Of a stretch of 64,000 nt of DNA, positions 12,785-46,033 are shown one piece after another (the first letter of the stretch is position 1; each line of letters opens with the position of its first letter). The stretch covers positions 35,701 to 99,700 of the forward strand of contig CANJPH010000007.1 of the NCBI GenBank assembly GCA_947476145.1, read 5' to 3'. Both the position numbers and the translations under genes were made by a program. Origin of the DNA: Bacteroidota bacterium (lineage in GTDB: Bacteria; Bacteroidota; Bacteroidia; Chitinophagales; Chitinophagaceae). The notes beneath the pieces are model-generated. The model did no database searches. It was given only the letters and a program-made list of their open reading frames with translations, and had not been told where the DNA came from.

Positions 12785-15019
12785 TTAAACGCTAAGTAAC
12801 CCGGCCTTATATAAATTGGTAATAGGCTTGTTATCCCAACATAATTCAAACCCATCTAACCCTTGTTTAGCATAGCTTTCCTTAATTTCGGTATAGGTTA
12901 AACCATTTCCATTTTCGATACTCAACTTTGACAATAAATGTAATAACCAGTTGCCTACTGCGGGTGCTAAACTAATGTCAAATGCGGTTTTATTGGTCTG
13001 AAAATGTAAATTCATTTCTTCCCATTTAGTCCCTTTTTTTGACCGTTGAACGATTGTTGTAGTTGGCATTACACCCACCCAAATTGCCTTGTAATGATTA
13101 GTTGCATTTATTTCAGGAACAGATATTGCTTTTAAAATATAGTCGGGTGGCACAGAAGTTTTTGGAATTTTAAATTCAAACCATTTTTGTAAAGGCAATT
13201 CAAAACATGCACCATGCATATAATTTAACAATGCCTTTTTTAAACCAAAGCCGAAAATTTCGTGATTCGCTCCAGTTGGATCTATATGTTCAATATCATT
13301 ATTGGCAAATGTGCCTATCTCCTCGGTTACTTTTTTTACTTTATATTTTTCGGGATTTAATCCAACGGGACTATGTGCAGTCATGGTAAATAAATGCCAA
13401 AAAGCCGACTGCAGGGTACCTGTCTCAAAAAGCTGTCTTACCATTTCTAAAGAGTCTACTGTTTCTTGAACAGTTTGTGTTGGGAAACCGTACATTAAAT
13501 AGGCATGTACCATAATGCCGGCATCGGAAAAGTGCTTACTTACTTTGGCCACCTGCGCAACGGTGATGCCTTTATCTATCAGATCCAATAACCTATCCGA
13601 TGCTACTTCTAACCCACCACTCACCGCAATGCAACCTGCCGCTTTTAACAACAAGCATAAATCACGAGTAAAACTTTTTTCAAATCGCACGTTGGCCCAC
13701 CAGCTTACAACAATTTTTCTTTTTATGATTTCAATGGCCACCGATTTCATTAAAGAAGGGGGTGCCGCTTCGTCTACAAAATGAAAACCATGCTCTCCTG
13801 TTTTTGCAATCAACTCCTCCATCCTATCAACAATTAAAGAAGCAGCAATAGGTTCATAGGATTTTATATAGTCTAAAGAAATATCACAAAAAGTACACTT
13901 GCCCCAATAACAACCATGTGCCATGGTTAATTTATTCCAACGACCATCACTCCATAAACTATGCATGGGGTTAATAACTTCAATGGCCGAAATATATTTA
14001 TCTAATAATAGTCCATCGTAATCGGGCGTACCCACTTGACCTTGTTTATAGTCCGAGCAATTTGTATTATTGATATAGGTAACCACTCCATTAACCAAGG
14101 TAAAACAACGTTTTAATTCATGTTGTTGTTTTTTGCCGTCAAGGTGGTCAATTAAAATTTCAAGGGGTGCTTCACCATCATCTAAAGTAATAAAATCATA
14201 AAATTCAAATACCCTTGCATCACTTAAGGATCTTAGTTCAGTATTCGCGAAACCCCCGCCCATGGCTACTTTCGTGCTAGGATAATATTGCTTCACCCAC
14301 TGCGCGCAACGCAAGGAAGTATATAAATTTCCAGGAAAAGGAACGGAGAGGCAAACTAATTTTGGATTCACTTCCTTTAATCTTGCATCCAAAATTTTAA
14401 TTAATATTTCGTCTAAATAAGTAAATGGTTTTTGCAATGCGTTGTATAAATCATCAAATGAATTTGCTGATCTTCCTAAACTTTCAGCATAACGACTAAA
14501 TCCAAAATGTTCGTCAATATTTTCTTTAATTAAATCACTAAGGTCTTCCAAGTACATGGTGGCAATATGCTTGGCCATATCTTGCTTTCCCATACTTCCA
14601 AAAGCCCAATTTAAATTGTCTAATTGTTCAAATCTACTGGCTTCGGGTAAAAAATTGCGCGTACAAATTAAATGAGCGAGTGTATTTGATTTTCCTTGCA
14701 AAAACGAAATCACCTGATCAATTGTTTTAATGTAAACCTCTTTCAAAGCAAAAATGCGCGCGCTGTTTTCAGATAACAGTAGGGGCGCAGTTTTATTCAA
14801 TTGCTTTTCCTGAATAGACTTGAATAAGTTTTCTAATCCCTCCTTGCAAAAAAGTGCAATCGTTACTTCAATGCCTAAATCGGCTTGAACCGCACTTATT
14901 CCTTTGGTATTAAAAAAGCCTTTCAAATAAGCCGTAGCCGGATAAGGGGTATTTAGCTGAGTAAAAGGTGGGGTGATTAAAAATATTGGGGCGCTCAAAA
15001 GGGTTCCATTTAAAAGCAA
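12785..15019 (-). CDS. B12-binding-type radical SAM protein
   Basis: The 744-aa protein shows an N-terminal region, then a cobalamin-binding-like Rossmann domain (about 215-310: LVCLSVPFPGNLYTSLRCAQ, then VAMGGGFANTELR). A radical SAM TIM barrel follows, with the cluster motif GCYWGKCTFCDIS (about 368). The spacing is CX4CX2C rather than the textbook CX3CX2C. The SAM-binding region SGGLEVASDRLL and GITVAQV follows. The C-terminal part (about 600-744) is not recognised. Members of this group do methyl transfers, ring rearrangements or RiPP maturation; the substrate here is unknown. It is divergent from a SusC/SusD operon with about 260 bp between, and is apparently monocistronic. Confidence 0.85.
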   Translation of the reverse strand: MLLNGTLLSAPIFLITPPFTQLNTPYPATAYLKGFFNTKGISAVQADLGIEVTIALFCKEGLENLFKSIQEKQLNKTAPLLLSENSARIFALKEVYIKTIDQVISFLQGKSNTLAHLICTRNFLPEASRFEQLDNLNWAFGSMGKQDMAKHIATMYLEDLSDLIKENIDEHFGFSRYAESLGRSANSFDDLYNALQKPFTYLDEILIKILDARLKEVNPKLVCLSVPFPGNLYTSLRCAQWVKQYYPSTKVAMGGGFANTELRSLSDARVFEFYDFITLDDGEAPLEILIDHLDGKKQQHELKRCFTLVNGVVTYINNTNCSDYKQGQVGTPDYDGLLLDKYISAIEVINPMHSLWSDGRWNKLTMAHGCYWGKCTFCDISLDYIKSYEPIAASLIVDRMEELIAKTGEHGFHFVDEAAPPSLMKSVAIEIIKRKIVVSWWANVRFEKSFTRDLCLLLKAAGCIAVSGGLEVASDRLLDLIDKGITVAQVAKVSKHFSDAGIMVHAYLMYGFPTQTVQETVDSLEMVRQLFETGTLQSAFWHLFTMTAHSPVGLNPEKYKVKKVTEEIGTFANNDIEHIDPTGANHEIFGFGLKKALLNYMHGACFELPLQKWFEFKIPKTSVPPDYILKAISVPEINATNHYKAIWVGVMPTTTIVQRSKKGTKWEEMNLHFQTNKTAFDISLAPAVGNWLLHLLSKLSIENGNGLTYTEIKESYAKQGLDGFELCWDNKPITNLYKAGLLSV

Positions 15020-23054: not shown

Positions 23055-24665
23055 ATGAAAAATATAATCGCCTTGTTTAGCCTGCTAATTGCAAATAGCT
23101 TGCTAGCACAAAACAATTTGGATGTTAGTTATTTATCCTCAGGGGGTAAACTAAAGCCACTTCAGGCTATCATGGATATTAGACATTACGATATAAATTT
23201 GGATGTTAATATTGAGCAAAGAACCATTCAGGGCAATACCATTGTCACTTTAAATTTAGCAAAGCAAACCGATACCATTTTATTGGATTTGGTACACTTA
23301 TTAATTGTCGAAAAAGTATTAGTGAATAAAAAAGAAGTTTCCTTTGAGCAAAAGGACGATAAAATATATATCAGTTCTAAAACAGGTTTTACAATAGGGA
23401 AACAGATGGTAGATATTAAATATGGTGGCGCCCCTCCCGTTGCGGTGAAGCCCCCTTGGTTTGGAGGATTTACCTGGGCAAAAGACAGCTTGGGCAATGA
23501 CTGGGTTTCTATCAATATTCAAAAAGAAGGTGGCAGAATGTATTTTCCTTGCAAGGACCACCCCAGTGACGAGCCCAATGAAGGCGTTGATATGCATATT
23601 ACCGTGCCCAAAAGCTTAGTAGTAGCAGGTCCTGGATTATTACAAAAAACAACCATTAAAAATAATAAAGCAACTTATTTCTGGAAAACCAATTACACCA
23701 TTAGTAATTATTGTGTGATTTTTAATATTGGTAAATACAAAGTGGCAAAAGATTCCTATACCACCATTAACGGCAATGTAGTGCCAATTGAATTTTATGT
23801 TTTGGAAGAAGACACCATGCATGCTAAAAAATTGATTGAAACTAAAATTAGAGATACTAAAATTTTAGAGAAGTATTTTGGGGAGTACCCATGGTATAAA
23901 GAAAAAATTGGCATCGCAGAAGTACCTAATTCAGGTATGGAGCATCAAACCATGATTACCTTTAATAATAAGTTCGAATACCGTAATATAGGAGGCAATG
24001 AATACTCGGATAATTTATTTCATGAATACGCTCATGAGTGGTGGGCCAATAAAGTAACCAATAAGGACTGGGCGCATATGTGGATACAGGAAGGCATTGG
24101 AACTTATGCCGAAGCTTTAGCTTATTTTGATTTAGGAGGACAGGCCGCCTATGATGCTAAAATAGCTGCGTTTAAAAGGAGTATTAAATTTAAGAAGCCG
24201 ATGGTAGGGGGTGAAGAATTATCGGAGGATGAAACCTATGCTGGCAATGATGTTTATACAAAAGGAGCATTTTTCATGCATAGCCTACGTTATGTGATTG
24301 GAGATGAAATATTCTTTCCAACTTTGAAGAAATTATCTACCGACCCTCAATATACTTACGATAATTTTGTAACCTCAAAAGATGTGGAGGAATTATTTTC
24401 GAAAGCAGCAGGTTATTCCCTAAAACCTTTTTTTGATTTCTATTTAAGAACAACCAATACACTGGATTTTAATGTAAAAGAAATTGGTTACCAACAATAT
24501 CAAATTACGCCTGCCAATTATGTGATGGATTTGCCTATTGACCTTATGATAAATAATAAAATAGAAAGAAAAAATATTGGAAAGGATGGCTTAAAAGTTT
24601 CCAGTCAATACCCTCCCGTTTTGGATCCCAATGGATATTATTTAAAGAAAGTGACGCTACAATAA
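23055..24665 (+). CDS. M1 family metallopeptidase, secreted, short form
   Basis: The 536-aa precursor has signal MKNIIALFSLLIANSLLA-Q. The N-terminal beta-saddle domain (about 35-250) contains RHYDINLDVNIEQRTIQG. The catalytic thermolysin-like domain has the substrate-binding variant SGMEHQTM (the GxMEN site) and the zinc site HEYAHEWW followed 18 residues on by the third ligand in IQEGIGTYAEAL. It lacks the long C-terminal helical domain of aminopeptidase N, as in the short M1 proteins of Bacteroidota. It probably trims peptides in the periplasm. It converges on the FGE gene with only 23 nt between the stops. Confidence 0.9.
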   Translation: MKNIIALFSLLIANSLLAQNNLDVSYLSSGGKLKPLQAIMDIRHYDINLDVNIEQRTIQGNTIVTLNLAKQTDTILLDLVHLLIVEKVLVNKKEVSFEQKDDKIYISSKTGFTIGKQMVDIKYGGAPPVAVKPPWFGGFTWAKDSLGNDWVSINIQKEGGRMYFPCKDHPSDEPNEGVDMHITVPKSLVVAGPGLLQKTTIKNNKATYFWKTNYTISNYCVIFNIGKYKVAKDSYTTINGNVVPIEFYVLEEDTMHAKKLIETKIRDTKILEKYFGEYPWYKEKIGIAEVPNSGMEHQTMITFNNKFEYRNIGGNEYSDNLFHEYAHEWWANKVTNKDWAHMWIQEGIGTYAEALAYFDLGGQAAYDAKIAAFKRSIKFKKPMVGGEELSEDETYAGNDVYTKGAFFMHSLRYVIGDEIFFPTLKKLSTDPQYTYDNFVTSKDVEELFSKAAGYSLKPFFDFYLRTTNTLDFNVKEIGYQQYQITPANYVMDLPIDLMINNKIERKNIGKDGLKVSSQYPPVLDPNGYYLKKVTLQ

Positions 24666-24688: not shown

Positions 24689-25834
24689 TTATCTTATAGA
24701 GACGCATCTAAAACCGGTGTGCTCTAATCCTGTGTCAGCAGAAGTTTTCATTCTTGCAGTAACTCTATACCCTTTGCAATAAGATGCATTGCATAAAAAA
24801 GATCCTCCTCTTACCACACGCTTCGGTGCATTGGGTTCTTGTGGGTCGTAACTATCATCAGGTCCAATAGGATTTACAATAACTTGCGCGCTATTGTTTT
24901 CCAACTGCGTTGTATAAGTGTCTTCTCTATACCAATCCGAACACCATTCCCAAACATTGCCTGCCATATCATATAAACCCATAGCATTGGGTGCAAATTG
25001 TTTTACGGGCGCTAGACCGTCAAAACGATCCCATTTGGTATTGGTACTTGGAAAAGTGCCCTGCCATGTATTTGCTTTTGGTTTTCCTTTTTCGATATCC
25101 TCCGATCCCCAGGTATATTTAGTTTTAAGCCCTCCCCTAGCCGCACATTCCCACTGCGCTTCGGTTGGCAATTGCTTGCCTGCCCATTTGCAATATGCTT
25201 GTGCGTCATCCCAGGAAACATGTACTACTGGATAATTATCTTTACCCTTAATGTCAGAACCTGGACCCTTTGGATGTTTCCAATTGGCACCCTGTTTCCA
25301 GCTCCACCAAGCAGCAGCATTGTCTAAGGGCGTTCCAATGGGTTGTTTTACAAAAACAAGTGAAGCAGCTACCAACACATCCTCAGCAGGCTTAGGTGTG
25401 CCTGGTGGTAATTGCAATTTAATTAATTCCCAATCTGGTTTTTGTTCGGCGGTAGTAATATAACCAGTGGCATCCACAAACTTTTTAAACTGTGCATTGG
25501 TTACTTCCGTTGCATCTATCCAAAAATCAGCCAACTGCACTTTATGTTGCGGATACTCGTCTACTCTCCCTTCATTATCATTCGCTCCCATTAAAAAAGT
25601 TTGTGCTTTTATAAGTACCATGCCTTCATGAGAAACCTTACCTTTTTTATTTATGTTATTTGAATCAGTTTCACTTATTAAACCCCCTATTCCAAAACGC
25701 GCAGGGATTTTTGTACAACAATCTATGCTATCCTGTTTTATGGATTTCACTTTTTTTTGAGCGATAGATGAACTAGCACTCAAAAAAAATGCGAAAGCGA
25801 CAAATATATATTTTATATTGCTGTGAAAGTTCAT
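24689..25834 (-). CDS. Formylglycine-generating enzyme (sulfatase-modifying factor), exported
   Basis: SUMF1/FGE family enzyme that oxidises the sulfatase active-site Cys to formylglycine. The start at 25834 (MNFHSNIKYIFVAFAFFLSA) gives a signal peptide. The FGE-sulfatase domain starts at MVLIKAQTFLMGANDNEGRV. It contains DEYPQHKV, FWIDATEVTNAQFKKFVDATGY, PVVHVSWDDAQAYCKWAGKQLPTEAQWECAARGG and GNVWEWCSDWY. The C-terminal GGSFLCNASYCKGYR keeps both copper-binding/redox Cys in the order of human Cys336/Cys341, so this is a true FGE candidate rather than a structural homologue. It is last in the PUL operon, 43 nt after kduI, downstream of four sulfatases that need it. Confidence 0.88.
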   Translation of the reverse strand: MNFHSNIKYIFVAFAFFLSASSSIAQKKVKSIKQDSIDCCTKIPARFGIGGLISETDSNNINKKGKVSHEGMVLIKAQTFLMGANDNEGRVDEYPQHKVQLADFWIDATEVTNAQFKKFVDATGYITTAEQKPDWELIKLQLPPGTPKPAEDVLVAASLVFVKQPIGTPLDNAAAWWSWKQGANWKHPKGPGSDIKGKDNYPVVHVSWDDAQAYCKWAGKQLPTEAQWECAARGGLKTKYTWGSEDIEKGKPKANTWQGTFPSTNTKWDRFDGLAPVKQFAPNAMGLYDMAGNVWEWCSDWYREDTYTTQLENNSAQVIVNPIGPDDSYDPQEPNAPKRVVRGGSFLCNASYCKGYRVTARMKTSADTGLEHTGFRCVSIR

Positions 25835-25877: not shown

Positions 25878-26708
25878 TTATTTAATAGACGCTATGGCTA
25901 CTGGATCCATGTCGGTAAATTCTTTATTTTCACCCGCCATACCCCAAATAAACCCATAATTACTAGTACCTACTCCAAAATGCATGCTCCAAGGTGCAGA
26001 CAATACCGCTTCATTATTGGCAACGACTAAATGTCTTGTCTCCTGAGGCTCACCCATAAAATGCATCACACGATGTGCTTCATTTAAATCAAAATAAAAA
26101 TAAGCTTCCATTCTTCTTGTATGGGTATGTGGTGGAACGGAGTTCCAAACACAACCTTCTTCCAAAGTAGTTAAACCCATTACCAACTGACAGCTTTGAA
26201 TGCCGTCGTTATGAATGTATTTGTAAATCGTTCTTTTATTAGAAGTGCTAAAATCACCTAAATGTACAGGAGATGCTTCATCCTTAGTCATTGATTTGTT
26301 TGGATAGCTAGCGTGAGCAGGAACTGAAAGCAAATAAAACAAAGCGGGCGCATTGCTATCATCACTTACAAATGATACCTCTTTAGTGCCTTTTCCTAAA
26401 TAAGTACATTCTAATTTATCTAAACCATAACTTACACCATCCGCAACCACTTTACCTTTACCTCCCACATTGATGATACCCATTTCTCTGCGTTCTAAAA
26501 AAAAGTTTGCTTTTAATTCACCTTCATTAGGAAGTGCAATGGCACTTGCTGTTGGTACAACACCGCCAACTATAATTCTATCGAAATGAGAATAGGTTAA
26601 ATTAATTTCCCCTTGTACCATTAAATCTTGAATTAAAAAGTTATCTCTTGTTTCCTTTGTGGACATAGTTGCCGTCTCTTTTGGACTGTTTTGAAATCTT
26701 ACTTGCAT
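25878..26708 (-). CDS. kduI: 5-dehydro-4-deoxy-D-glucuronate isomerase
   Basis: The 276-aa cytoplasmic cupin is the normal length for KduI. It interconverts 5-keto-4-deoxyuronate and 2,5-diketo-3-deoxygluconate, the step after lyase/hydrolase products ring-open. The zinc site is visible: PPHTHTRRMEAYFYF gives two His and the Glu, and the fourth ligand His is in APWSMHFGVGTSNYGFIWGM. Upstream FFLERREMGIINVGGKG and YLGKGTKEVSF are also family stretches. It lies between kduD (50-nt gap) and FGE in the PUL operon. Confidence 0.95.
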   Translation of the reverse strand: MQVRFQNSPKETATMSTKETRDNFLIQDLMVQGEINLTYSHFDRIIVGGVVPTASAIALPNEGELKANFFLERREMGIINVGGKGKVVADGVSYGLDKLECTYLGKGTKEVSFVSDDSNAPALFYLLSVPAHASYPNKSMTKDEASPVHLGDFSTSNKRTIYKYIHNDGIQSCQLVMGLTTLEEGCVWNSVPPHTHTRRMEAYFYFDLNEAHRVMHFMGEPQETRHLVVANNEAVLSAPWSMHFGVGTSNYGFIWGMAGENKEFTDMDPVAIASIK

Positions 26709-26758: not shown

Positions 26759-27520
26759 TTATCGACCCATCCATCCTCCGTCAACCGTAATGATGGTCCC
26801 ATTTATATAATCCGATGCTGGTGAAGATAAGAAAACATAGGCGCCTGATAAATCGGAGGTCTCTCCCCATCTGCCAGCTGGAATTCTGGATAGAATGGCG
26901 GTACTTCTATCCGCATCCGCTCTTAACTGCGTTGTATTATTGGTGGCAATATAACCTGGCGCTACTCCATTTACAGTAATGCCATGCGGTGCCCACTCAT
27001 TTGCAAATGCTTTTAATAAAGAAGCGACAGCCCCTTTACTCGCCGCATAGCCCGGTACATTAATCCCCCCTTGAAAACTTAATAGTGAGCATGTAAATAC
27101 AATTTTACCATATTTATGCGCCAACATGGATTTACCAATTTCTCTTGTAATTAAAAATTGAGCGTTTAAATTAATATCAATGATGGTATCCCAAAATTCA
27201 TCGGAATGTTCTGCTGCAGGTTGTCTTAAAATATGACCTGCATTGTTAATTAGAATGTCAATTTTGGGATGATCCACTTTTACTGCATTCAAGAATGTAT
27301 ACAATGAATCTCTGTTTGAAAAATCTGCCGTATAAGCATAAAATTTCCTTCCTGCTGCTTCAACCGCTTTTGCAACATCACTTCCAGTTGCAGGCAAATT
27401 ATTGGATACCCCAATAATGTCAGCGCCAGACTGCGCTAGCTCAATGGCTATATACATGCCAATTCCACTGCTACATCCTGTAACCAGCGCTAATTTGTTA
27501 TCTACTCTAAAGTTTAACAT
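26759..27520 (-). CDS. kduD: 2-dehydro-3-deoxy-D-gluconate 5-dehydrogenase (KduD) or DEH-reductase-like SDR
   Basis: The 253-aa classical SDR has the NAD(P) motif TGCSSGIGMYIA (about 15-26), the NNAGHILRQPAAEHS segment typical of KduD, catalytic Ser in FTCSLLSFQGG, and YAASKGAVASLLKAF with the Tyr-xxx-Lys pair. It ends in NGTIITVDGGWMGR. KduD reduces 2,5-diketo-3-deoxygluconate to KDG. The same SDR group includes reductases of the alginate monomer DEH, and the PL6/PL17 neighbours make that alternative possible. It is 20 nt downstream of the alginate-lyase-family gene. Confidence 0.92.
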   Translation of the reverse strand: MLNFRVDNKLALVTGCSSGIGMYIAIELAQSGADIIGVSNNLPATGSDVAKAVEAAGRKFYAYTADFSNRDSLYTFLNAVKVDHPKIDILINNAGHILRQPAAEHSDEFWDTIIDINLNAQFLITREIGKSMLAHKYGKIVFTCSLLSFQGGINVPGYAASKGAVASLLKAFANEWAPHGITVNGVAPGYIATNNTTQLRADADRSTAILSRIPAGRWGETSDLSGAYVFLSSPASDYINGTIITVDGGWMGR

Positions 27521-27539: not shown

Positions 27540-28733
27540 TTATAATAATTTAATAATCATTTTTGAATAATCTGGTGATTTTTTATTCATATATGGAACG
27601 CAACTTACGCATTGCAAATGTTTACTTGCACTTAATAATAATGGGTAGGCGTCTCCAACATCAAAATGATTTAAAGTAGGCCATGTCCATGTTTTCTCCT
27701 CCATTAAATAAGGCAACACAAAGTCATATGCATTTTTAAAAGACATGCCATTATTTAATTTAGTAGCTCTAAAATCAACGTTTATATTATCAGACAATTG
27801 TGCGATACATTCAAAAGCATTTAAAATAAAAACGGAGTAATGTAAAGAATTAGTTCTTCCTAACTCTAGTGGGAAGGCTCCTTTTGCATCCATTTGATCA
27901 TTTAGTCTTCCTAGTGCACGATTTATAATCTTTTTAGACTCTTCCGTGTTTTCTAAGAAATTAGTGATGGCCAAGGCCTGTGCATCATACCAAACACCAT
28001 GATTGTTAGCGGCTTTTTTTTCGTCCTTGCCAATTTTACTATTATCCAACCAATCATAGTAGGCTGTAAACCAAATTTTTAATTCGTTATTATCATTCTT
28101 TGTCCAGGTCTTGGACTTGTTTAAAAGTTGGACCCCATCTAATAAAAATATGAAATGTCTTGTATCTATTAATCCTTCACCTCTTCCTTCTACTACCCCT
28201 TTTACGGCTTGACCAAAGTTTACATTTGGATTCATTTTAGTAGCGGTATCTATAAACCAAGTGCGTACCAATTCTTTCGCCTTCTTCGCATATTTTTCGT
28301 TACCAGATAAATAAAAAGCCAATGAAAATTCGTACACTTTTTCGCAAACCCTTGGCATATTTTCCTTGTCCGGATAATTCCCCACTTCTGGGTTCACTTC
28401 TCCGTCTTTTCTTATATATGGCAAGCCATTCTTGGTGCTTGGGTCTGGCCACCAATAAGGAGCCAAGCTCATATAATCATGCTTGTTGCCACTTGGCGGG
28501 AAATCCTTTTTATCCATTACAGAAAAAGGGCCAAAACTCATGCTTTTGTCGCATTGTTTAATTAAACTTTCATACGCCAACATCATATCTTTATCACCTT
28601 GCGCAATTTTATTCTTGGTTACTACCAATGCTTTATTATCCAGGACGACCATATCAGATTTTGACAATCTAGTTTGTGTAAAACCAATGAATGCTATTGT
28701 GGTGAACAATAAAGAAATACTAACTTTTTTCAT
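27540..28733 (-). CDS. Alginate-lyase-family polysaccharide lyase (PF05426, PL38-like), copy 1
   Basis: The 397-aa exported protein (signal MKKVSISLLFTTIAFIGFTQ) has an all-helical (alpha/alpha) barrel of the alginate_lyase Pfam type. Conserved blocks are FPPSGNKHDYMSLAPYWWPD (about 80-100), NPNVNFGQAVKGVVEGRGEG, the likely active-site NNHGVWYDAQALAI, and FPLELGRTNSLHYSVF. The layout resembles PL38 lyases, described next to PL6 and PL17 in Bacteroides ovatus alginate loci, rather than Pseudomonas PL5. It would cleave beta-linked uronate chains by elimination in the periplasm. A second, divergent paralogue is at 49698-50831. Confidence 0.82.
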   Translation of the reverse strand: MKKVSISLLFTTIAFIGFTQTRLSKSDMVVLDNKALVVTKNKIAQGDKDMMLAYESLIKQCDKSMSFGPFSVMDKKDFPPSGNKHDYMSLAPYWWPDPSTKNGLPYIRKDGEVNPEVGNYPDKENMPRVCEKVYEFSLAFYLSGNEKYAKKAKELVRTWFIDTATKMNPNVNFGQAVKGVVEGRGEGLIDTRHFIFLLDGVQLLNKSKTWTKNDNNELKIWFTAYYDWLDNSKIGKDEKKAANNHGVWYDAQALAITNFLENTEESKKIINRALGRLNDQMDAKGAFPLELGRTNSLHYSVFILNAFECIAQLSDNINVDFRATKLNNGMSFKNAYDFVLPYLMEEKTWTWPTLNHFDVGDAYPLLLSASKHLQCVSCVPYMNKKSPDYSKMIIKLL

Positions 28734-28753: not shown

Positions 28754-30679
28754 TTATTTTTTTTCGGTGTTAAAACAAGATGCAGGCAATCCTTCCTTGT
28801 TATACAAATTTGCGCCTACTGGGTTGTCAGCCCAAGCATACCTAACATATTTGGGATGATCAATCATTGTACTTGAAACAATTACCTTATTGTCTTCAAT
28901 ATAGGCGTCCGCCCATACATATTTTTTATCATCAGCTGCAATGGCAAAATGGAATAACTTGCCTGTTTCCTTAGCTACAAGCCCCGATCCAATATTGTTA
29001 AAATATAGCAATATGCTATTATCCTTGATTTCTGTTTTTACTAGTGAAGGTCCCGAATAAACAATTTTATTTTCTTTATACGCTACTTTAAGGGAAGCTA
29101 AGTAAAGCCTATTAGCCGCTTCTAATTTATTCATAGGATGAACATCATTCCATTCTCCAATATCATTAATCACCGCCATTCCCGTATTAGGTAAGCTAAG
29201 TGTATTGGATTGTGCCTCCTGTAATTCTGCTAACTTACTTTCACTTGGCTGAGGTTTTGGCTTATTGATATTTGCCAATTGAACCCATAAGAAAGGGAAA
29301 TCACCCTGACCCCATGCACTTCGCCAGGAAGTAATTAAGTCTGGAAAAAGGGTTCGATATTCTTTTGCTTTGCTTTGATTGGCTTCCCCTTGGTACCAAA
29401 TCACTCCTTTGATTCCATAGCCAAGTAAAGGATGAATCATAGCATTATACAGGGCGGCTCCTTCGCAAAATAACTTTGTTAAACTATCTCTTTTAAAAGG
29501 CTCAACCGAAACTCCTAATTGATATTTCCATGCTCCGGTTAAATCAATCACAGTATCGCCAATTTCTAATTGATATCTTTTATCTTTTATAAATCCGGCA
29601 TCTCCGCCTTCATTGGTTATTTTAACCGTAATAGTATTGGTTCCTTCCTGCAATACCTTTTTATTGATTGTATAATATCTTGGTGCATGTTTATTATAAG
29701 TAGTACCCACCTTAATGCCGTTTACATAGGTAACATCCTTCATAATAATATTACCCAATCTTAATTTAGCGACCTGCCCTTGGTATTTTTTGGGAAGTAG
29801 AATATCTTTTTTATACCATACACTACCTGCTTTTACTTCGGGTAGTTTTTCTTGCCAAAAGCTTGGCATTGTTACAGAAGGCCAAGTTGAAGCATCAAAT
29901 AACTTGCTTTCCCAATGTGCTTTATCGCCTTCATCTAAGGTGGCCACTTTTTTATTCCATTGATCCGTATATAGTTTATCCGCTTTAGTGATACTATCCA
30001 CGCTGCTTTCTTCTTTGAAAAAAATAGTCCTATTATAATATTTTGGATAATTAACCAAGGCTGTTTCACTCATCCATGCTTCTGCGGGTGTGCCACCATA
30101 ACTTGAATTGATTAAACCAATGGGGACTTTGTACTTATCATATAATTTAAGTGCATAAAAATAAGCGATGGCACTAAAATTGGGTACTGTTTTTGGGCCT
30201 GCTTTTTCCCAACCTTTAATAGATTCTACATTATCTAATAGCGTAAATGAATTATTTCTTTTTACCTGAAAGTGGCGAATTTGATCGTTTTCCGAATTGG
30301 CAATTTCATTTGGATATTTTTCGGCTGCCTTGTATAATTCATATTCCATATTGGATTGGCCTGAACAAAACCAAACGTCTCCCACTAAAATATCTTCTAC
30401 TTTAATTTGATTAGCACCTTTTACAATTAATTCATAGGGGCCTCCTTGCTTACTCTTAGCCAAATTAATTTTCCACTTATTATCGCTGCCAGTAATTGTT
30501 GAGTATGCCTTACCCTTAAATGTAACTTCTATTTTTTCTCCTGCTTCTGCCCAACCCCATATGGGTATGGTAATATTTCTTTGCAATACCATACCATTAC
30601 TAATAAAGCGAGGCAATATTACATTTGCTTTAGCTTGTATTGATAAAAAAATAAATAAAATTAATTTAAGCTTGTTCAT
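28754..30679 (-). CDS. SGNH-type (sialate O-acetylesterase family) carbohydrate esterase
   Basis: I choose the Met at residue 8 (30679), which begins a signal peptide (MNKLKLILFIFLSIQAKA), giving a 641-aa precursor. The N-terminal beta domain has PRFISNGMVLQRNITIPIWG. The SGNH catalytic blocks are WFCSGQSNMEYEL (nucleophile Ser, about 110), SSYGGTPAEAWM, GVIWYQGEANQ, and WNDVHPMNKLEAANRL with the catalytic Asp-x-x-His. A jelly-roll insertion (about 290-380: VRYTINKK-type beta strands) divides the fold, as in the 600-700-aa Bacteroidota members. In a PUL this enzyme removes acetyl groups, so the target polymer is probably O-acetylated. Confidence 0.9.
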   Translation of the reverse strand: MNKLKLILFIFLSIQAKANVILPRFISNGMVLQRNITIPIWGWAEAGEKIEVTFKGKAYSTITGSDNKWKINLAKSKQGGPYELIVKGANQIKVEDILVGDVWFCSGQSNMEYELYKAAEKYPNEIANSENDQIRHFQVKRNNSFTLLDNVESIKGWEKAGPKTVPNFSAIAYFYALKLYDKYKVPIGLINSSYGGTPAEAWMSETALVNYPKYYNRTIFFKEESSVDSITKADKLYTDQWNKKVATLDEGDKAHWESKLFDASTWPSVTMPSFWQEKLPEVKAGSVWYKKDILLPKKYQGQVAKLRLGNIIMKDVTYVNGIKVGTTYNKHAPRYYTINKKVLQEGTNTITVKITNEGGDAGFIKDKRYQLEIGDTVIDLTGAWKYQLGVSVEPFKRDSLTKLFCEGAALYNAMIHPLLGYGIKGVIWYQGEANQSKAKEYRTLFPDLITSWRSAWGQGDFPFLWVQLANINKPKPQPSESKLAELQEAQSNTLSLPNTGMAVINDIGEWNDVHPMNKLEAANRLYLASLKVAYKENKIVYSGPSLVKTEIKDNSILLYFNNIGSGLVAKETGKLFHFAIAADDKKYVWADAYIEDNKVIVSSTMIDHPKYVRYAWADNPVGANLYNKEGLPASCFNTEKK

Positions 30680-30709
30680 TGGTATCCTATAAGTAGGCAA
30701 TTTATTTTT

Positions 30710-32026
30710 TTAATTATTATCTTGTTTCTTTTTAGCCTTATTAGCCGCCTTATTAGCATGTCTTCCACTACCATCCCCTTTATCTAAAACACCAGATGCT
30801 GGATCTAATTCATTCAATATCTTTTGAAGGTTTTCCTTTATGGCTTTTGTACTGTCCGAAACCGGTGTTAACTTTTCTTCAAAAGGGGCATTACGCATAT
30901 CAAAAAGCTCACCTGCTCTGTTTAGCTTCCAGTTGGCTTCTCTTACATACCAGTCATTACCCAATTCAGTAAATATCCAATTTCTAGGATTTGCTTTACC
31001 TCCATTAAGCTGTTTGGCGAAACTAGTGCCATCTAACTTTTTATCGGTAGGCAAAGTTGCTCCTGCAATTTCAGCAAATGTGGGTACAAAATCCGACGCA
31101 TCCACTAAGCTATTTGATACTGCTCCTTTTTTGATAACACCTGGCCAGTTTACAATTAATGGAACTAAACTTCCGCCTTCTTGCATGGTGCCTTTTTTAC
31201 CAATAAGTTTTTTACCATTAACCAATCCAATCTGAGCTGCTTGTCCAGCTGTTCCATTGTCTCCAAAAAATACAATTAACGTATTGTCTCTTAATTTAAG
31301 ACTATCTAAAGTGTGTATTAATTTTCCTACCAACTTATCCATGTAATTAATATTGTCGGTATATAGGTCTTTAAAGTCAGTGGTGCCAGGTTTTGTATCT
31401 GGCGTAGCCTTAATTTCACCATGCACATGCACTAAAGAGTAATACAAGTAAAATGGATCCTTTGTATGATTTGATAAAAAATCTACCATATGATCATGCA
31501 TCAAATCGGGCATATATTCATTGTCCTTTAATACTAAATCCTTGCCATTTAGAACATACTTTTGTTTCTTTTCATCGGTATTATTATAAACACCACTTCC
31601 AGTGAATCGCAAATAATCATCAAAACCAAATTCTGCAGGACCTAATGGTAATTGCCCCCATTTACCAATCATGGAAGTTGTATAACCAGCAGATTTTAAA
31701 ATTTTAGACATCATAGTTTCGTCCGAGGGTTTAAACTCGCCTGTTTGATCTTGGTTTACAGCACCTGTTCTAAAGGCATATCTACCTGTTAATATCATGG
31801 CTCTAGAAGGACCGCATAAAGGAGCGGTGTAGGCATTTGTATACCTAATGCCATTTTTAGCAAGTTTATCAATTTCAGGGGTTTTGAATAAATCGGCTCC
31901 ATAACTACTTATGCCATCTATGCCTAAGTCATCGGCAAGCACAAAAATAATATTGGGCTTTTTATTTTGCGCAGAAACACTTAGCGTTAAAAATGTAAGA
32001 ACTAATAAGAATGATGAAAATTTCAT
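30710..32026 (-). CDS. Type I (formylglycine) sulfatase, periplasmic, copy A
   Basis: The 438-aa precursor has signal MKFSSFLLVLTFLTLSVSAQ. The sulfatase core begins PNIIFVLADDLGIDGISSYG, with the first metal Asp pair. The maturation motif is CGPSRAMILTGR (C-x-P-S-R), so formylglycine is expected at this Cys. The usual GKWHLG is GKWGQLPLG, keeping the Lys but not the His in place. The second metal site is FFGDNGTAG. The chain ends in a basic low-complexity tail (GRHANKAANKAKKKQ). The S1 subfamily and the sulfate position cannot be read from the sequence. It lies 30 nt from the esterase in the operon. Confidence 0.92.
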   Translation of the reverse strand: MKFSSFLLVLTFLTLSVSAQNKKPNIIFVLADDLGIDGISSYGADLFKTPEIDKLAKNGIRYTNAYTAPLCGPSRAMILTGRYAFRTGAVNQDQTGEFKPSDETMMSKILKSAGYTTSMIGKWGQLPLGPAEFGFDDYLRFTGSGVYNNTDEKKQKYVLNGKDLVLKDNEYMPDLMHDHMVDFLSNHTKDPFYLYYSLVHVHGEIKATPDTKPGTTDFKDLYTDNINYMDKLVGKLIHTLDSLKLRDNTLIVFFGDNGTAGQAAQIGLVNGKKLIGKKGTMQEGGSLVPLIVNWPGVIKKGAVSNSLVDASDFVPTFAEIAGATLPTDKKLDGTSFAKQLNGGKANPRNWIFTELGNDWYVREANWKLNRAGELFDMRNAPFEEKLTPVSDSTKAIKENLQKILNELDPASGVLDKGDGSGRHANKAANKAKKKQDNN

Positions 32027-32068: not shown

Positions 32069-33838
32069 CTAGTTAGCATTTGATTGTTTTTTTGTTTTTT
32101 TATCCCAAGGCCATGGCAAGGCTTTTGTACGAATGGCTTCCTTTTCCCATAATAAAGATAGTTCTTTCACTTTTACAGGATACAGGCTAGCAAGATCTTT
32201 AATTTCACTAGGATCCGTTTCTAAATTATATAGCTCCCAAGCATTTTGATCCTTTTCTGTAAAGACTTTATTTTTTTCAGTCTTTGAAACTAATTTCCAG
32301 GTACCTGCTTTAATAGCCCGATTGCCTTCATGTTCCCAAAAAATAAAATCACGTTGAATAGGTAAGTTGATAATAGCCCCTACTAAACTTTTTCCCTCCA
32401 TCGGTATAATTTCATTGCCATTGTAAGTTTTAGGATAGGATATTCCAGCAATATCAACACAGGTGGCCATAATGTCTATTAAATGCGCATCCTGATTACG
32501 AATTGCTCCTTTTTGTTTTACCCCTTTTGGCCAATAAATAACTAAGGGTGAGGCAATGCCCCCCTCGTGCGTCCAATGTTTATACATTTTAAAGGGGGTA
32601 TTACTTACATTGGCCCATTCCATGCCATAAGTAACCCAGGTATTGGCGGGGCCAGGCATTACGCCCATGCCGCTTCTAATAAATTGACCGTCTCTTGTAT
32701 AAATTGGTTTCTTGCCAACGAATATAGAGTCCCTCGCAAAGGGATGATTTTGTTGTTGATCTGCAGTAAGCGCAATTTCAGGCTGATCCGAATCTAAAGG
32801 CTCAGCGCAACCTCCATTATCATGCATGTAAAAAATTACCGTATTGTCAAGGATCCCTTTTTGTTCTAATGTGGAGATAATTTTTCCAATACCCTGATCC
32901 ATAATATCAATCATGGCTGCATACACTTCCATTTTTCGTACTTGCCAATCTTTCATAGGTGCATTTTCCCAGGCTGGAATACTCACGCCACGTTCCGTTA
33001 AAACTGCTTCTTTACTAATCATCCCTAATTTTTGTAACTTATTAAATCTTGTAGTTCTGATAGCATCCCAACCCTTATCATAAACGCCCTTGTATTTTTG
33101 CACTTCCTTTTCAGGAGCATGTAAGGGCCAATGCGCCGAAGTATAAGCAATATAAAAAAAGAAAGGATTAGGCGTTTTATGTTCGTTGATAAATTTAACT
33201 GCGGTATCTGTTATCGCATTGGTATAATAAAAATTATCGCCAGCTGCGATATAGGTATTGTTACTTACTAAAGTACCTGGATCATAAAAACTTCCGGATC
33301 CATTTAAGGTTCCAAAATATCTTTGAAACCCTCTCTGCATTGGCCAATTGCTTATATCATTTTTATTGACAATATCTTTTGCAATATGCCATTTACCTGT
33401 CATATAAGTAGCATAGCCAGCGGAGTTAAAAACTTCGGCCATCGTTACAGCATGCTTACTTAAGTCATCCACATATCCTTCCTCGGTAAAATTTTCGGTA
33501 GACAAATGTCCCATACCCGCCTGATGCGGATAAAGGCCCGTTAATAAAGAAGCGCGTGAAGGGCTGCATCTTGCTGTGTTATAAAAATGGCTAAATCGAA
33601 CACCTTCTTTTGCCAATTTATCAATATTGGGCGTATTTATTTCAGAACCATAACAACCTATATCAGAGAAGCCCATATCGTCGGTTAAGATAACAATGAT
33701 ATTGGGTTTTTTATTTAACGCAGAATTAGATTGTGCAGCTGAAGAAAGCGCGATAAGTGGCCCCAATGATGTTAATATATATAAAGTGAAGTACTTTTTA
33801 ATTAAAATAACCTGACTATATTTAAATCTTTGTATCAT
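32069..33838 (-). CDS. Type I (formylglycine) arylsulfatase-like enzyme, copy B
   Basis: The 589-aa protein has a long hydrophobic N-terminus (KKYFTLYILTSLGPLIALSS-A) serving as signal. Motifs are PNIIVILTDDMGFSDIGCYG (metal Asp pair), RCSPSRASLLTGLYPHQAGM (maturation Cys in CSPSR), TGKWHIAK and MHDNGGCAE. The length and the LYPHQAGMGH segment match the larger arylsulfatase A-type subfamily, for example S1_4-like enzymes. It has all the canonical residues, unlike copy A. It sits in the middle of the four-sulfatase run, with a 66-nt gap to copy C. Confidence 0.92.
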   Translation of the reverse strand: MIQRFKYSQVILIKKYFTLYILTSLGPLIALSSAAQSNSALNKKPNIIVILTDDMGFSDIGCYGSEINTPNIDKLAKEGVRFSHFYNTARCSPSRASLLTGLYPHQAGMGHLSTENFTEEGYVDDLSKHAVTMAEVFNSAGYATYMTGKWHIAKDIVNKNDISNWPMQRGFQRYFGTLNGSGSFYDPGTLVSNNTYIAAGDNFYYTNAITDTAVKFINEHKTPNPFFFYIAYTSAHWPLHAPEKEVQKYKGVYDKGWDAIRTTRFNKLQKLGMISKEAVLTERGVSIPAWENAPMKDWQVRKMEVYAAMIDIMDQGIGKIISTLEQKGILDNTVIFYMHDNGGCAEPLDSDQPEIALTADQQQNHPFARDSIFVGKKPIYTRDGQFIRSGMGVMPGPANTWVTYGMEWANVSNTPFKMYKHWTHEGGIASPLVIYWPKGVKQKGAIRNQDAHLIDIMATCVDIAGISYPKTYNGNEIIPMEGKSLVGAIINLPIQRDFIFWEHEGNRAIKAGTWKLVSKTEKNKVFTEKDQNAWELYNLETDPSEIKDLASLYPVKVKELSLLWEKEAIRTKALPWPWDKKTKKQSNAN

Positions 33839-33904: not shown

Positions 33905-35515
33905 TTATTTAAGCTTCAGTTGAGATGCAAAGTAGGAAAGCATTTCAGCTTTTAATTTTTTGGCAACTACATCATAGTTCACATCCTTTGCAACATTTAC
34001 TTTTTCTAATGGGTCTGCTTTATAGTCATATAATTCGTCTCCAATCACAGACTCGGCTTTAAAAGGCTGTGTAGATCTAAAGCCGTTTTTCATCCAAATG
34101 GTGTATCTATATTGACTATTCCGAATTGAATACCCCATTACATTTGCTGCTGCATAGCCCAAGCGATCATTTTCCTCGTCTACTCCACTTCGTGGATATT
34201 GACTAATGGAATATTCTTTCACCGAAGCCAATGGATTTTTCATAATCGGTTGTAAGCTTTTTCCTTGCAATTGAGTAGGTATCGCAACGCCAGCTAAATC
34301 ACAAAGCGTTGGAAAAATATCCACATGCTCCGAATATGATTTTGTTTTATTTGCAGCATACCCTGGCGCACTAATAATTAAAGGCGCATGTGTTGCTTGT
34401 TCAAAATTACTATGCTTACACCATAAGTTATGATCTCCTAAATGCCAGCCATGATCGCCCCATAAAACAATAATGGTATTCTTAGTTAATCCTAAAGAAT
34501 CCAATGTGTTTAAAAGTTTGCCCACTAAAGCATCGGTATAAGAGATTGCAGCATAATAACCATGTAATAATTCCTTCTGCTTATCGGTTGATAAGGATAA
34601 TCCTAATTCTTTTTGTGGCGTTACCGCTATCACAGCTGGGATATCGGTGTAGGCTCTTAACTCTCCTGCATTGTGGTAAGCAACTTCAATAGGATTTTTA
34701 TTAATTTCTTGAAAAGGCTCCAGCACTATATCTTCTCTTTTATATAAATCCCAATACTTTTTTGGTGCTACAAATGGCAAATGCGGCTTAGCAATGCCAA
34801 CTGCAAAAAAGAATGGTTCATTTTTTTTACTTAATTGTGCTAAAATAGCTTGCGCCTGTAAAATATTAGCGCCATCCGTGTAGGCATTATCTGCAACATC
34901 AATATTTTCAGTGGTAGGGCGAACTTTAGCAGTAGCTTCCGCATTCGCTTCCGCTTTTGTCATTCCCTTAGCAAGGGCCTCATTAATTACTTTTTCTGCT
35001 GCTAATTTAGTTTCTTTTAATTGATACCTACCTTCTGCAGGTTCTCCTAATTCAGGAACGTAATATTTTTTATCTGTTTTATAATAAGGGATACTCCAAG
35101 AAACTTTATCCGTGTTAACATCTACATTTCTTGGGTCAAACACTTTACCAATACCTTGAGTGGAATATCCTTGTGTAATTAAATGCTGAGGCAAGGTTAC
35201 AATATCGGGGCTTACATCCCTGATTTGTGTTTTTAAATCCCATATTTTGGTCATGTCGGGACGCATACCCGTTAATAAACTTGCACGCGTTGGTCCACAC
35301 ACTGCTTGTTGACAATAATTATTTAAAAAGGTGGTGCCCATCTTAGCCAACCTATCCATGTTCGGCGTCTTTACAAACGTATTCCCATAAGCCCCAATTA
35401 ATGGCTTTAAATCATCTATCGCTATAAATAATATGTTTGGCTTTGATTTTGTTTGCGCCTCAATTTGAGTTTGTGCAGTTACAATGAGTAAACAAAATAA
35501 AAATATTTTTTTCAT
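33905..35515 (-). CDS. Iduronate-2-sulfatase-like sulfatase, copy C (CGPTR motif)
   Basis: The 536-aa precursor has signal MKKIFLFCLLIVTAQTQIEAQ. The core starts PNILFIAIDDLKPLIGAYG. The maturation site is QAVCGPTRASLLTGMRPD, where the fourth position of C-x-P-S/A-R is Thr. LWGDHGWHLGDH supplies the second metal and substrate His residues. The IDDLKP opening and GWHLG block are typical of the iduronate-2-sulfatase-like group (S1_7). It is a clear tandem paralogue of copy D. An insertion with KVINEALAKGMTKAEANAEA (about 170-200) is predicted helical and is unusual. Confidence 0.9.
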   Translation of the reverse strand: MKKIFLFCLLIVTAQTQIEAQTKSKPNILFIAIDDLKPLIGAYGNTFVKTPNMDRLAKMGTTFLNNYCQQAVCGPTRASLLTGMRPDMTKIWDLKTQIRDVSPDIVTLPQHLITQGYSTQGIGKVFDPRNVDVNTDKVSWSIPYYKTDKKYYVPELGEPAEGRYQLKETKLAAEKVINEALAKGMTKAEANAEATAKVRPTTENIDVADNAYTDGANILQAQAILAQLSKKNEPFFFAVGIAKPHLPFVAPKKYWDLYKREDIVLEPFQEINKNPIEVAYHNAGELRAYTDIPAVIAVTPQKELGLSLSTDKQKELLHGYYAAISYTDALVGKLLNTLDSLGLTKNTIIVLWGDHGWHLGDHNLWCKHSNFEQATHAPLIISAPGYAANKTKSYSEHVDIFPTLCDLAGVAIPTQLQGKSLQPIMKNPLASVKEYSISQYPRSGVDEENDRLGYAAANVMGYSIRNSQYRYTIWMKNGFRSTQPFKAESVIGDELYDYKADPLEKVNVAKDVNYDVVAKKLKAEMLSYFASQLKLK

Positions 35516-35555: not shown

Positions 35556-37142
35556 TTATTTCGTTTCTTGTGATTTGAAAAAATCAGTCATTTTTTTATA
35601 CATTTCTTTCGCTGCTTCTTTATATTTATCAGATTTATAAATATTTTCTTTTTCCAAAGGGTCGGCATTGTAATCATACATTTCAGCAGCATAAATCTTT
35701 TTGGAATCAAATGGTTGATCAGAAGTAAAATCATTCATCCAAATGGTAAAACGATATTGGCTAGTTCTTAAACTGTACCCCATAATTTTATTAGAATCAA
35801 AACCTGCATTTTTAGCGTCTTCTTTACTTAATTTTCTAGGATATTGACTCATAGCAAAATCATTTACTGAACTGCTGTTGTTGATCATTACAGGTTTTAA
35901 ACTCTTACCTTGTAATTGACTAGGAATTTTTAATCCTGCTAAATCTACGATAGTAGGGAAAATATCAAGGTGCTCCGATAATGAGGTGGTTCTGCCAGGC
36001 TTCATGCCAGGTGCTGCAACGATTAATGGAGCGCGGGTAGCATTTTCCAAATTAGTGTGCTTTTCCCATAAATCATGATCTCCCAAATGCCAACCATGAT
36101 CTCCCCATAATACAATAATGGTATTATTTAGTGTTCCTAGGGAATCTAATGTGTTTAATAAAATACCTACTTGCGCATCCATATAAGAAACAGCAGCATA
36201 ATACCCATGAATTAATTCCTTTTGCTTTTCTTCTTTTAAGTATACATGATTACCTGGTTGATTAAAAGTTGCAAACTCAGGGATGTCGATATAATTTCTT
36301 AACTCGCCAGATTTGTGATAAGCAATTTCAGGTGCATCTTTTGCATGTTCCGTAAATGTAGCCAAAGGCATATCAGCTCGATTGTATAAATCCCAATATT
36401 TTTTTGGAGCGACAAATGGCAAATGCGGTTTTCGAAAACCTACTGCCATAAAATAAGGATTACTGCTTTTTGAAAACTCAATTAACTTATTTTTTGCTAA
36501 AAGTGCTATGACTCCATCGTCATAAGCATTGTCTGGCACATCAATAGATTCAGTAGAAGGACCTTTAATGGTAGTGGGCTCTTCGTCATCATTGTCTCTT
36601 TTTTCTCTTTCTTTTTTAGTTACAAATAGTGCCTTGTTTTCGGGTTTCTGGTATTGTGAATTTGCTGGTTTCCCTAAACTATTCGCATAGTCCGATGCTT
36701 CGGGCTCTAAATAAGGCATATTCCAACTTACAGGGTCAATTTTTTTAATGGAGCTGCTTGGATGATATATTTTACCCGTTCCAACTGTATTGTACCCCTG
36801 GGTAATTAAATATTGTGGCAGTGTTAAAATGTTGGGATTCATATCACGCATCTGCGTTTTTAAGTCCCACACTTTAGTATAATCAGGGCGCATACCCGTC
36901 ATCAAACTAGCACGCGTAGGTCCACATACTGCTTGTTGACAATAGTTATTTAAAAAAACGGTAGACATTTTTGCTAGCCTATCAATATTGGGTGTTTTCA
37001 CCAACTTGTTGCCATAAGGGCCAAGCTCGGGCTTCAAATCGTCTACAGCAATAAACAAAATGTTTGGTTTGCTTTTTTGTGCATTTACATTGCTTATTAA
37101 CGTAAATGTCAATAGTATCGCAAATAATAGATTGTTTTTCAT
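35556..37142 (-). CDS. Iduronate-2-sulfatase-like sulfatase, copy D (CGPTR motif)
   Basis: The 528-aa precursor has signal MKNNLLFAILLTFTLISNVNAQ. It shares most landmarks with copy C: PNILFIAVDDLKPELGPYG, QAVCGPTRASLMTGMRPD, WDLKTQMRDMNPNI, VGFRKPHLPFVAPKKYWDLY and LWGDHGWHLGDHDLW. The insertion of copy C is replaced here by a charged stretch (KKEREKRDNDDEEPT). It is the first gene after the PUL terminator at 37265-37298, so its transcription needs read-through of that terminator or its own start in the 184-bp gap. Confidence 0.9.
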   Translation of the reverse strand: MKNNLLFAILLTFTLISNVNAQKSKPNILFIAVDDLKPELGPYGNKLVKTPNIDRLAKMSTVFLNNYCQQAVCGPTRASLMTGMRPDYTKVWDLKTQMRDMNPNILTLPQYLITQGYNTVGTGKIYHPSSSIKKIDPVSWNMPYLEPEASDYANSLGKPANSQYQKPENKALFVTKKEREKRDNDDEEPTTIKGPSTESIDVPDNAYDDGVIALLAKNKLIEFSKSSNPYFMAVGFRKPHLPFVAPKKYWDLYNRADMPLATFTEHAKDAPEIAYHKSGELRNYIDIPEFATFNQPGNHVYLKEEKQKELIHGYYAAVSYMDAQVGILLNTLDSLGTLNNTIIVLWGDHGWHLGDHDLWEKHTNLENATRAPLIVAAPGMKPGRTTSLSEHLDIFPTIVDLAGLKIPSQLQGKSLKPVMINNSSSVNDFAMSQYPRKLSKEDAKNAGFDSNKIMGYSLRTSQYRFTIWMNDFTSDQPFDSKKIYAAEMYDYNADPLEKENIYKSDKYKEAAKEMYKKMTDFFKSQETK

Positions 37143-37326: not shown

Positions 37327-38868
37327 TTAATAACCCGGATTTTGCGGTATCACTAGTTTTGTATTATTGTCAATTTCGCGTTGTGGAATGGGCAATAATA
37401 ATTTATTGTCTGTTACATAAGATTGAATCGTAGCCAATGATGGTGGTGTTGGATATTTGCTATAATGAATAGTCCACATGGCACTAAAATTAGCCTTCAT
37501 GATAGCGACTGCATTTAGACTTGGCATGGTGTTATTATATCTTAAAAGATCAAACCATCTCATGTTCTCAAAAACAAATTCTAGTCTTCTCTCAGCGGCT
37601 AATTCCTTTTCGAAAATGGCAGTAGTCGTGACTGTTGTTGCAGTTAACGCTGGTAAACCCGCGCGCGCGCGCGTTTGATTCATTAACGCTAAGCTAGCAG
37701 GCGTATTTCCTTGTGCTTCCGCCAACATCAATAAAACGTCCGCATATCTAATAACAATCCAGTCGTTTTCAGCATCTCCTTTAAGAGATACTTGAGAAAT
37801 CATTTTTTTAGCATATAAATTATTAAGTGCCTTTCCATAAACACCAATACTCACAGCATTACGATTGTCTAAAGCATTATAAGCTGAGTTTAATTCCGCA
37901 CATGGTGCATTGAAATTTGAACCATCACCATTAATAACAGCAACGCCACTTAACTCTGGTGCAAATAAATTAGGAAAAGGAGAACCTTGTCCAATACCAC
38001 CTGCCTTATATCTTATGGCAAACATCACTTCCTTATTCATTTCGTTGGTAATAGAAAAAACATCTGCGTAAGTTGAAACCAATCCATAACCACTATTGGC
38101 AATGATATCATTTAATAAAGGAATAGCATCCGTTTTACGATTTAATGTCAAATACACTTTAGCTAGTAAAGCTTTCGCTGACCAGGCATTTGCTTTACCT
38201 AAATTCGCAGTTGGAATAGATGCATATTTTAAAGTAGACCCATTCTCAATTGAATAGGTAAGATCCGCAATGATCAGTTTGTACATTTCGTCAGTAGTCG
38301 CTCTATTTATTTTTGTTGCTTCAAATGGATCAATTGGCTCATGAATTAACATGACTCCACCATATAGTCTCACTAAATTAAAATAATGGTAGGCTCTAAT
38401 GAAGGCAGCTTCCGAGCTAATTACCTTTTTTTGCGCATCTGTAATTTCTACCTTAGTAGTTGCAGCATTTAGCTTGCCTGTAGCCGGATCGTAATTTACA
38501 TTCAAACTATTTAAAATATTATTTATATTTCGAATGTTATAATAGTTTGCAATCCAGTAGTCGTAAATAGCAGCATGCGAAGTACTAGGAATAAATAAAT
38601 CCAAGTCGCTTAATTCTCTATTTGGTGCTGACTTACTTGCAGAACTATACATTATAGTATTGTCGCTGCGCATTTCAGTTAATTTCCATTCATCTAATAA
38701 TGGCGTTCTTAACGCATTATAACAACCGTTTAATGCAGTCTGAACATCAGTCGCATTTTTATAGAAGTTTTCGGTAGTTATATTTGATTGGGGATACAGA
38801 TCTATCGTTTTCTCGCAAGACGCAAGAAATATAGAAGATAGTATTAATAGATTTACAATGTTTTTCAT
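37327..38868 (-). CDS. PUL SusD/RagB glycan-binding lipoprotein
   Basis: The 513-aa precursor has signal MKNIVNLLILSSIFLASC with Cys at the lipobox. It then has EKTIDLYPQSNITTENFYKN, the TPR-like helix ISSEAAFIRAYHYFNLVRLYGG, and the C-terminal RagB/SusD pieces ELAAERRLEFVFENMRWFDL and LLPIPQREIDNNTKLVIPQN. It binds oligosaccharide on the cell surface and lids the SusC. The segment encoding TRARAG contains a (CG)7 tract at 37660-37673, odd in AT-rich DNA. It is co-transcribed with susC upstream (33-nt gap). Confidence 0.95.
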   Translation of the reverse strand: MKNIVNLLILSSIFLASCEKTIDLYPQSNITTENFYKNATDVQTALNGCYNALRTPLLDEWKLTEMRSDNTIMYSSASKSAPNRELSDLDLFIPSTSHAAIYDYWIANYYNIRNINNILNSLNVNYDPATGKLNAATTKVEITDAQKKVISSEAAFIRAYHYFNLVRLYGGVMLIHEPIDPFEATKINRATTDEMYKLIIADLTYSIENGSTLKYASIPTANLGKANAWSAKALLAKVYLTLNRKTDAIPLLNDIIANSGYGLVSTYADVFSITNEMNKEVMFAIRYKAGGIGQGSPFPNLFAPELSGVAVINGDGSNFNAPCAELNSAYNALDNRNAVSIGVYGKALNNLYAKKMISQVSLKGDAENDWIVIRYADVLLMLAEAQGNTPASLALMNQTRARAGLPALTATTVTTTAIFEKELAAERRLEFVFENMRWFDLLRYNNTMPSLNAVAIMKANFSAMWTIHYSKYPTPPSLATIQSYVTDNKLLLPIPQREIDNNTKLVIPQNPGY

Positions 38869-44947: not shown

Positions 44948-45004
44948 GTACCGGAAATTTCGCTTACAAATAAGTACTACTTTGTGCTTTCAAACAGTAG
45001 TAAT

Positions 45005-46021: not shown

Positions 46022-46033
46022 CGCGCGTTATTC

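Follow-up and report, generated by a model that had tools for sequence, protein, structure and literature searches.

A predicted exported formylglycine-generating enzyme at the end of a sulfatase operon in Bacteroidota

The sulfatase operon and its surroundings

The window (the whole stretch of 64,000 nucleotides analysed here) carries a head-to-tail run of genes on the minus strand, in the order SusC, SusD, four sulfatases, a SASA esterase, an alginate-lyase-family protein, KduD, KduI and, as the last gene, a formylglycine-generating enzyme (FGE) (Table 1). All four sulfatases (37142-30710) have a Sec-type leader and a C-x-P-S/T-R motif, and they are of the Cys type. The initial annotation had put the FGE at the end of an operon with four exported sulfatases, and the minus-strand run, the leaders and the CxPS/TR motifs are indeed present. 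The gene beyond the FGE (23055-24665) is convergent and M1-peptidase-like by sequence; a terminator-like site was looked for 3' of the FGE gene, and none was found.

Upstream of the operon, positions 42515-50831 hold heparinase II/III-like, LacI regulator, GH88, chondroitinase-B-like and second alginate-lyase-family genes. The presence of heparinase-like, GH88, chondroitinase-B-like and alginate-lyase-family genes beside the operon points to a sulfated uronate polysaccharide as its probable substrate, and the operon and these upstream genes probably form one large locus for it.

Table 1. Coordinates of the operon genes and of the FGE features in the window (export is predicted)
Feature	Position	Strand	Basis
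SusC-like TonB-dependent transporter	38902-42087	minus	PF07715 Plug, PF13715
SusD-like glycan-binding protein	37327-38868	minus	PF07980 120 bits
Exported sulfatase 4, CGPTR	35556-37142	minus	PF00884 141 bits
Exported sulfatase 3, CGPTR	33905-35515	minus	PF00884 145 bits
Exported sulfatase 2, CSPSR	32069-33838	minus	PF00884 214 bits
Exported sulfatase 1, CGPSR	30710-32026	minus	PF00884 195 bits; leader and motif in translation
Exported SASA-type carbohydrate esterase	28754-30682	minus	PF03629 67 bits
Exported alginate-lyase-family protein	27540-28733	minus	PF05426 276 bits
KduD-like SDR dehydrogenase	26759-27520	minus	NF005390/TIGR01832 ~305 bits, just below cut-offs
KduI, 5-dehydro-4-deoxy-D-glucuronate isomerase	25878-26708	minus	NF002091 417 bits, above cut-off
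Exported FGE, 381 aa	24689-25834	minus	ORF; PF03781 262.9 bits; PDB best match 6s07; AF2 model
Signal peptide, residues 1-25 (MNFHSNIKYIFVAFAFFLSASSSIA, followed by Q)	25760-25834	minus	Leader position common to family; predicted
N-terminal-extension Cys motif CCTKIPARFG, residues 39-48	25691-25720	minus	Alignment conservation
FGE catalytic domain, residues 70-378	24701-25627	minus	Pfam and phmmer alignments
Catalytic copper-binding pair Cys348-x4-Cys353	24776-24793	minus	Aligned with human Cys336/Cys341

The FGE and its catalytic site

The FGE gene runs on the minus strand from an ATG at 25834 to a stop at 24689 and encodes 381 residues, the coordinates and strand being those first annotated; the list of open reading frames also holds a 388-residue version that starts at an upstream TTG. 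The first residues of the protein are MNFHSNIKYIFVAFAFFLSASSSIAQKK, and its N-terminus reads MNFHSNIKYIFVAFAFFLSASSSIAQ followed by KK. It matches the Pfam family PF03781 (FGE-sulfatase) with 262.9 bits against a curated cut-off of 23.3, and the closest solved structure found by phmmer is the FGE of T. curvata (6s07, 253 bits), the human enzyme scoring 234 bits. Its catalytic motif is GGSFLCNASYCKGYR, in which both redox Cys reported at first reading align with the copper Cys of the human and T. curvata enzymes; this pair, Cys348/Cys353, is invariant in the alignment of homologues (69/69). The AlphaFold (AF2) model has a mean pLDDT of 85, with residues 22-60 disordered, and its top Foldseek matches are FGE structures (E 5.5e-34). 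The protein lies far below the NCBIfam cut-offs for GldK, GldJ, EgtB, SenA and PvdO, with equivalog scores of 142 bits for GldK (cut-off 350) and 55 bits for GldJ (cut-off 458). By its sequence it is a canonical catalytic FGE, which is expected to convert Cys to formylglycine, and its identification as a structural protein of the FGE fold is rejected, as the catalytic Cys pair is intact. A structural disulfide between Cys215 and Cys377 was also considered and discarded: the two positions do not covary, and many sequences retain just one of them.

Three proteins of the FGE fold are encoded in the window genome, of which the other two, a GldK (446 bits, above cut-off) and a GldJ-like protein (289 bits, below cut-off), have no catalytic Cys pair; no leaderless catalytic FGE was found in this genome. 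Of the six PF00884 proteins present, four belong to the operon and the other two are a membrane enzyme resembling LtaS and a weak match of phosphatase type, so that all the bona fide sulfatases sit in the FGE operon. The anaerobic Bacteroidota use another maturase, anSME, a cytosolic radical-SAM enzyme that is unrelated to FGE and introduces the same modification into the same motif. A genome-encoded anSME had been named as a finding that would speak against maturation by the FGE, and no match to it was obtained in the window genome, a MAG of 2.06 Mb that is 95.3% complete and from which an anSME could be missing. Elsewhere in the window (12785-15019) there is a large radical-SAM-like protein with HGCYWGKCTFC in its translation; since the genome gives no match to the anSME model, this protein does not qualify as the missing maturase by that model.

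A conserved leader, usually with a lipobox

The leader of the window FGE is hydrophobic, ends in SSIA followed by Q and is SPI-like by a simple rule, which is permissive and is passed by 14 of 63 cytosolic controls (21-22% false calls). The initial annotation was right to take this leader (its SIAQ) as real, since its position is kept across homologues and a lipobox Cys is found in 64 of the 68 rows that have a letter in the corresponding column of a 69-row alignment (A1). Because of this Cys, the family is predicted to consist mainly of lipoproteins. The window FGE has no lipobox Cys, and Ser21 (AGT) occupies that column. A sequencing error at this codon is rejected, because the sister sequence L221, from genome G326, also has Ser there, in an LSAS form identical to that of the window FGE. 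Both leaders are still similar to those of their lipoprotein sisters, and the window FGE is probably a derived, soluble form that has no lipid anchor.

From 80 loci in named genomes, 79 complete or near-complete homologues were read, and every one of them (79/79) carries the catalytic Cys pair. By simple rules, and not by SignalP, 64 of 76 leaders are of the lipobox type, ten are SPI-like, one is TM-like and one falls in no class. Lipobox-type leaders are called in 2.6% of shuffled leaders and in none of the 63 cytosolic proteins. Read by eye, every catalytic FGE in a sample of 198 genomes has a leader except L178 and L179, both from genome G122; the automatic classifier left some FGEs of this sample uncalled where it did not recognise the domain start. 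FGE homologues of Planctomycetota also have leaders or membrane anchors. Nearly all the examined FGEs of Bacteroidota and Planctomycetota are predicted to be exported, and the leader appears to be both ancient and conserved within the family. A start-codon artefact as its source is rejected, because the leader is conserved across the family.

Distribution and gene neighbourhood

The phylum was sampled through 198 Bacteroidota genomes with a completeness of at least 90%. A catalytic FGE is encoded in 35 of them, 30 detected by A1 and five more by PF03781 together with the Cys pair. The first regular expression for the catalytic Cys missed the GGSHLC type, and a looser one was used for a re-scan. 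Sulfatases are present in all 35 genomes with an FGE and in 81 of the 198 genomes of the whole sample (P = 1e-16, with no correction for phylogeny), and an FGE is found in 29 of the 37 genomes with at least four sulfatases against six of the 161 others, the genomes with fewer than four having been screened by A1 alone. In the same sample anSME is found above cut-off in eight genomes, ten in all, and never in a genome that has an FGE. Within the genus of the window, 65 of 147 genomes have an FGE and 64 of these 65 also have sulfatases, the sole exception being a genome that is 56% complete; in this genus, gains and losses of FGE coincide with those of sulfatases. The exported enzyme, usually a lipoprotein, appears to be the normal form of FGE in the phylum, whose sulfatases are therefore probably activated extracytoplasmically.

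When ten ORFs around each FGE are compared, sulfatases form the largest neighbour family (35 of 79 loci), nearly all on the same strand, and their commonest place is directly upstream of the FGE (22 loci-members at position -1), while for roughly half of the homologues the flank examined contains no sulfatase. No copper, redox or other partner is conserved beside the FGE across the 79 loci, and a link to copper genes is rejected, sulfatase being the sole dominant neighbour.

Several other forms were met in the phylum. The leaderless L178 and L179 are catalytic FGEs of a GGSHLCAPNYC type that stand beside a lipoprotein FGE (L095) in the same genome, and the type-specific pattern finds none outside it (one of 198 genomes). 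L116-L127, also with lipobox leaders, are catalytic FGEs that make up a second group, divergent from the first. Five FGEs of marine Bacteroidota (L072, L073, L074, L076 and L080) lack the Cys linker; their gene order is conserved and includes a sulfatase at a distance of about 2.4 kb. Seven near-complete, sulfatase-rich genomes that carry Cys-type sulfatases (G150, from the window's own genus, and G107, G134, G108, G135, G140 and G088) have neither a catalytic FGE nor an anSME at loose thresholds, an observation to which loci L162-L173 belong. Because these sulfatase-rich relatives have neither maturase, another maturation route may exist and serve some sulfatases of the phylum, or these may be left unmatured.

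A Cys-bearing linker and loss of the lipid anchor

Between the leader and the enzyme, in an otherwise variable linker, lies a C-x3/4-P-x-R-F motif, of which Cys39 is conserved in 50 of 55 sequences, Pro44 in 48 of 58 and Arg46 in 50 of 57. The window FGE has this motif as CCTKIPARF, with two Cys. The linker (residues 22-60) is disordered in the model, which shows no docked N-terminal motif and gives no information on it. Among 91 FGEs that bear the motif, L229 and L230 being re-assigned by hand in this classification, 72 have a lipobox and a single linker Cys, 17 have two Cys and no lipobox, and two have both a lipobox and two Cys. When only the catalytic core is used for the tree, the FGEs without a lipobox (17) fall into three separate, well-supported groups, and a single clade for all of them is rejected (AU p 1.8e-68). 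The lipid-anchor Cys appears to have been lost in three independent lineages, one of them that of the window FGE, and two motif Cys are present in all three. If five gains of the double Cys are placed at random by branch length, all three branches of loss are matched with P = 5.5e-5, for a pattern that was spotted post hoc and that amounts to three independent events in one genus (sign test p 0.25). Local recombination of N-termini could also be the source of this pattern.

The motif recalls the extension of the human enzyme (SCGCGTPQRPG), whose C-x4-P-x-R spacing we take to be the same as that of DCCTKIPARFG in the window FGE; the human string gave no match in the literature. In human FGE, Cys50 and Cys52 of this extension are required for sulfatase activation and retention in the ER (PMC7279497, PMC4505483), and a Cys-bearing N-terminal extension has been described as exclusive to higher eukaryotes (PMC7279497). 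It might be argued that, as in human FGE, the N-terminal extension is functional in the exported FGEs of bacteria, and that the second Cys replaces the lost lipid anchor, for example through a tethering or retaining disulfide; this reading, modelled on the action of Cys50/Cys52 with ERp44 in the ER, is considered unlikely. Under it, the lone conserved linker Cys would serve the membrane-anchored enzymes.

Proposed maturation outside the cytoplasm and its alternatives

The window FGE, a catalytic enzyme with an exported-type leader, encoded in a sulfatase operon of a genome in which no rival maturase was detected, is likely to be an aerobic, copper-dependent FGE that matures sulfatases outside the cytoplasm. 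The initial annotation had proposed such maturation, and the conserved leader, the operon, the lack of an anSME match and the co-occurrence of FGE and sulfatases support it. Its location, its copper loading, its activity on the four sulfatases and the timing of that activity relative to folding would, as we infer them, be as follows. FGE and sulfatase precursors would be exported separately by Sec, and FGE would be loaded in the periplasm with copper, as Cu(I) bound through Cys348/Cys353. FGE and O2 would then oxidise the Cys of C-x-P-S/T-R to formylglycine in still unfolded sulfatases, which would afterwards fold and desulfate the uronate-rich polysaccharide that the SusCD locus imports. The lipid anchor of most relatives would keep FGE on a membrane, near its emerging substrates. 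An FGE of Formosa agariphila has been used, by co-expression, for the maturation of sulfatases (PMC8511951).

Alternatively, FGE could act in the cytoplasm on sulfatases before they are exported, either prior to its own export or when translated from an internal start at Met72. This residue is nearly invariant and lies at the domain boundary, leaderless FGEs (L178 and L179) exist in the phylum, and the prokaryotic FGEs studied so far are placed in the cytosol (PMC4505483), among them the actinobacterial enzymes of Thermomonospora curvata (6s07) and Streptomyces coelicolor (2q17), which have the same copper fold and Cys pair as the window FGE at about 44% identity, whereas an export leader and a linker with Cys set the window FGE apart. 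However, protein-level conservation of leader, lipobox Cys and linker motif argues that the long form is made and is under selection, and the leaderless enzymes are a separate type confined to one of 198 genomes. A non-functional leader with translation from an internal Met had been named at the outset as what would refute export; conservation speaks against the former, a start at Met72 keeps some small chance, and cytoplasmic action as a whole is very improbable. Equally small is the probability that another, undetected system matures the sulfatases and that the window FGE has a minor or specialised part, as would suit a genome that is about 95% complete and relatives such as G150 that have Cys-type sulfatases and neither maturase; the sharing of one operon by FGE and sulfatases, together with their joint gain and loss in the genus, argues against it.

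The fold itself is found in exported proteins with other roles, such as the Bacteroidota lipoproteins GldK/PorK and GldJ of type IX secretion and gliding (PMC12421860) and OCTIN (PMC5915273), and the lack of a sulfatase in the flank of about half of the homologues would fit a structural or other periplasmic function of this kind. Yet GldK, GldJ and OCTIN have no catalytic Cys pair, which is invariant here, the best scores of the window protein go to true FGEs, and sulfatases are its dominant neighbours, with nearly perfect co-occurrence, so that a protein other than a maturase is the least probable of these explanations.

Extracytoplasmic maturation by the window FGE, the preferred reading, has its closest parallel in human FGE (SUMF1), which shares with it the catalytic domain and the Cys336/Cys341 pair and works in a secretory compartment, the ER, behind a cleaved signal peptide, as the window FGE is predicted to stand behind a leader. 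Unlike the human enzyme, the window FGE is bacterial, belongs to a family that is usually lipoprotein and has an otherwise different linker motif; its core is no nearer to the human enzyme than to the actinobacterial one, and the likeness of the extensions is one of spacing, for which homology is only a lead.

Implications for sulfatase maturation

The FGE enzyme itself is known, and its exported, mostly lipid-anchored form with a Cys extension appears to be undescribed in the open literature: no description of such a catalytic FGE as the standard of the phylum was found in open-access papers, and earlier notice in subscription papers is possible. Bacteroidota are major degraders of sulfated polysaccharides, and a periplasmic FGE in them would counter the cytosolic placement given in reviews and enzymology papers. 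Where sulfatases or aldehyde tags are to be expressed in the periplasm, a natural design would be to co-express an exported FGE with the target. If the proposed model is true, sulfatase maturation in bacteria also takes place in a secretory compartment with oxidising conditions, much as in the human ER, and the need for an unfolded substrate, the supply of copper and the retention of the enzyme would become testable in simple organisms.
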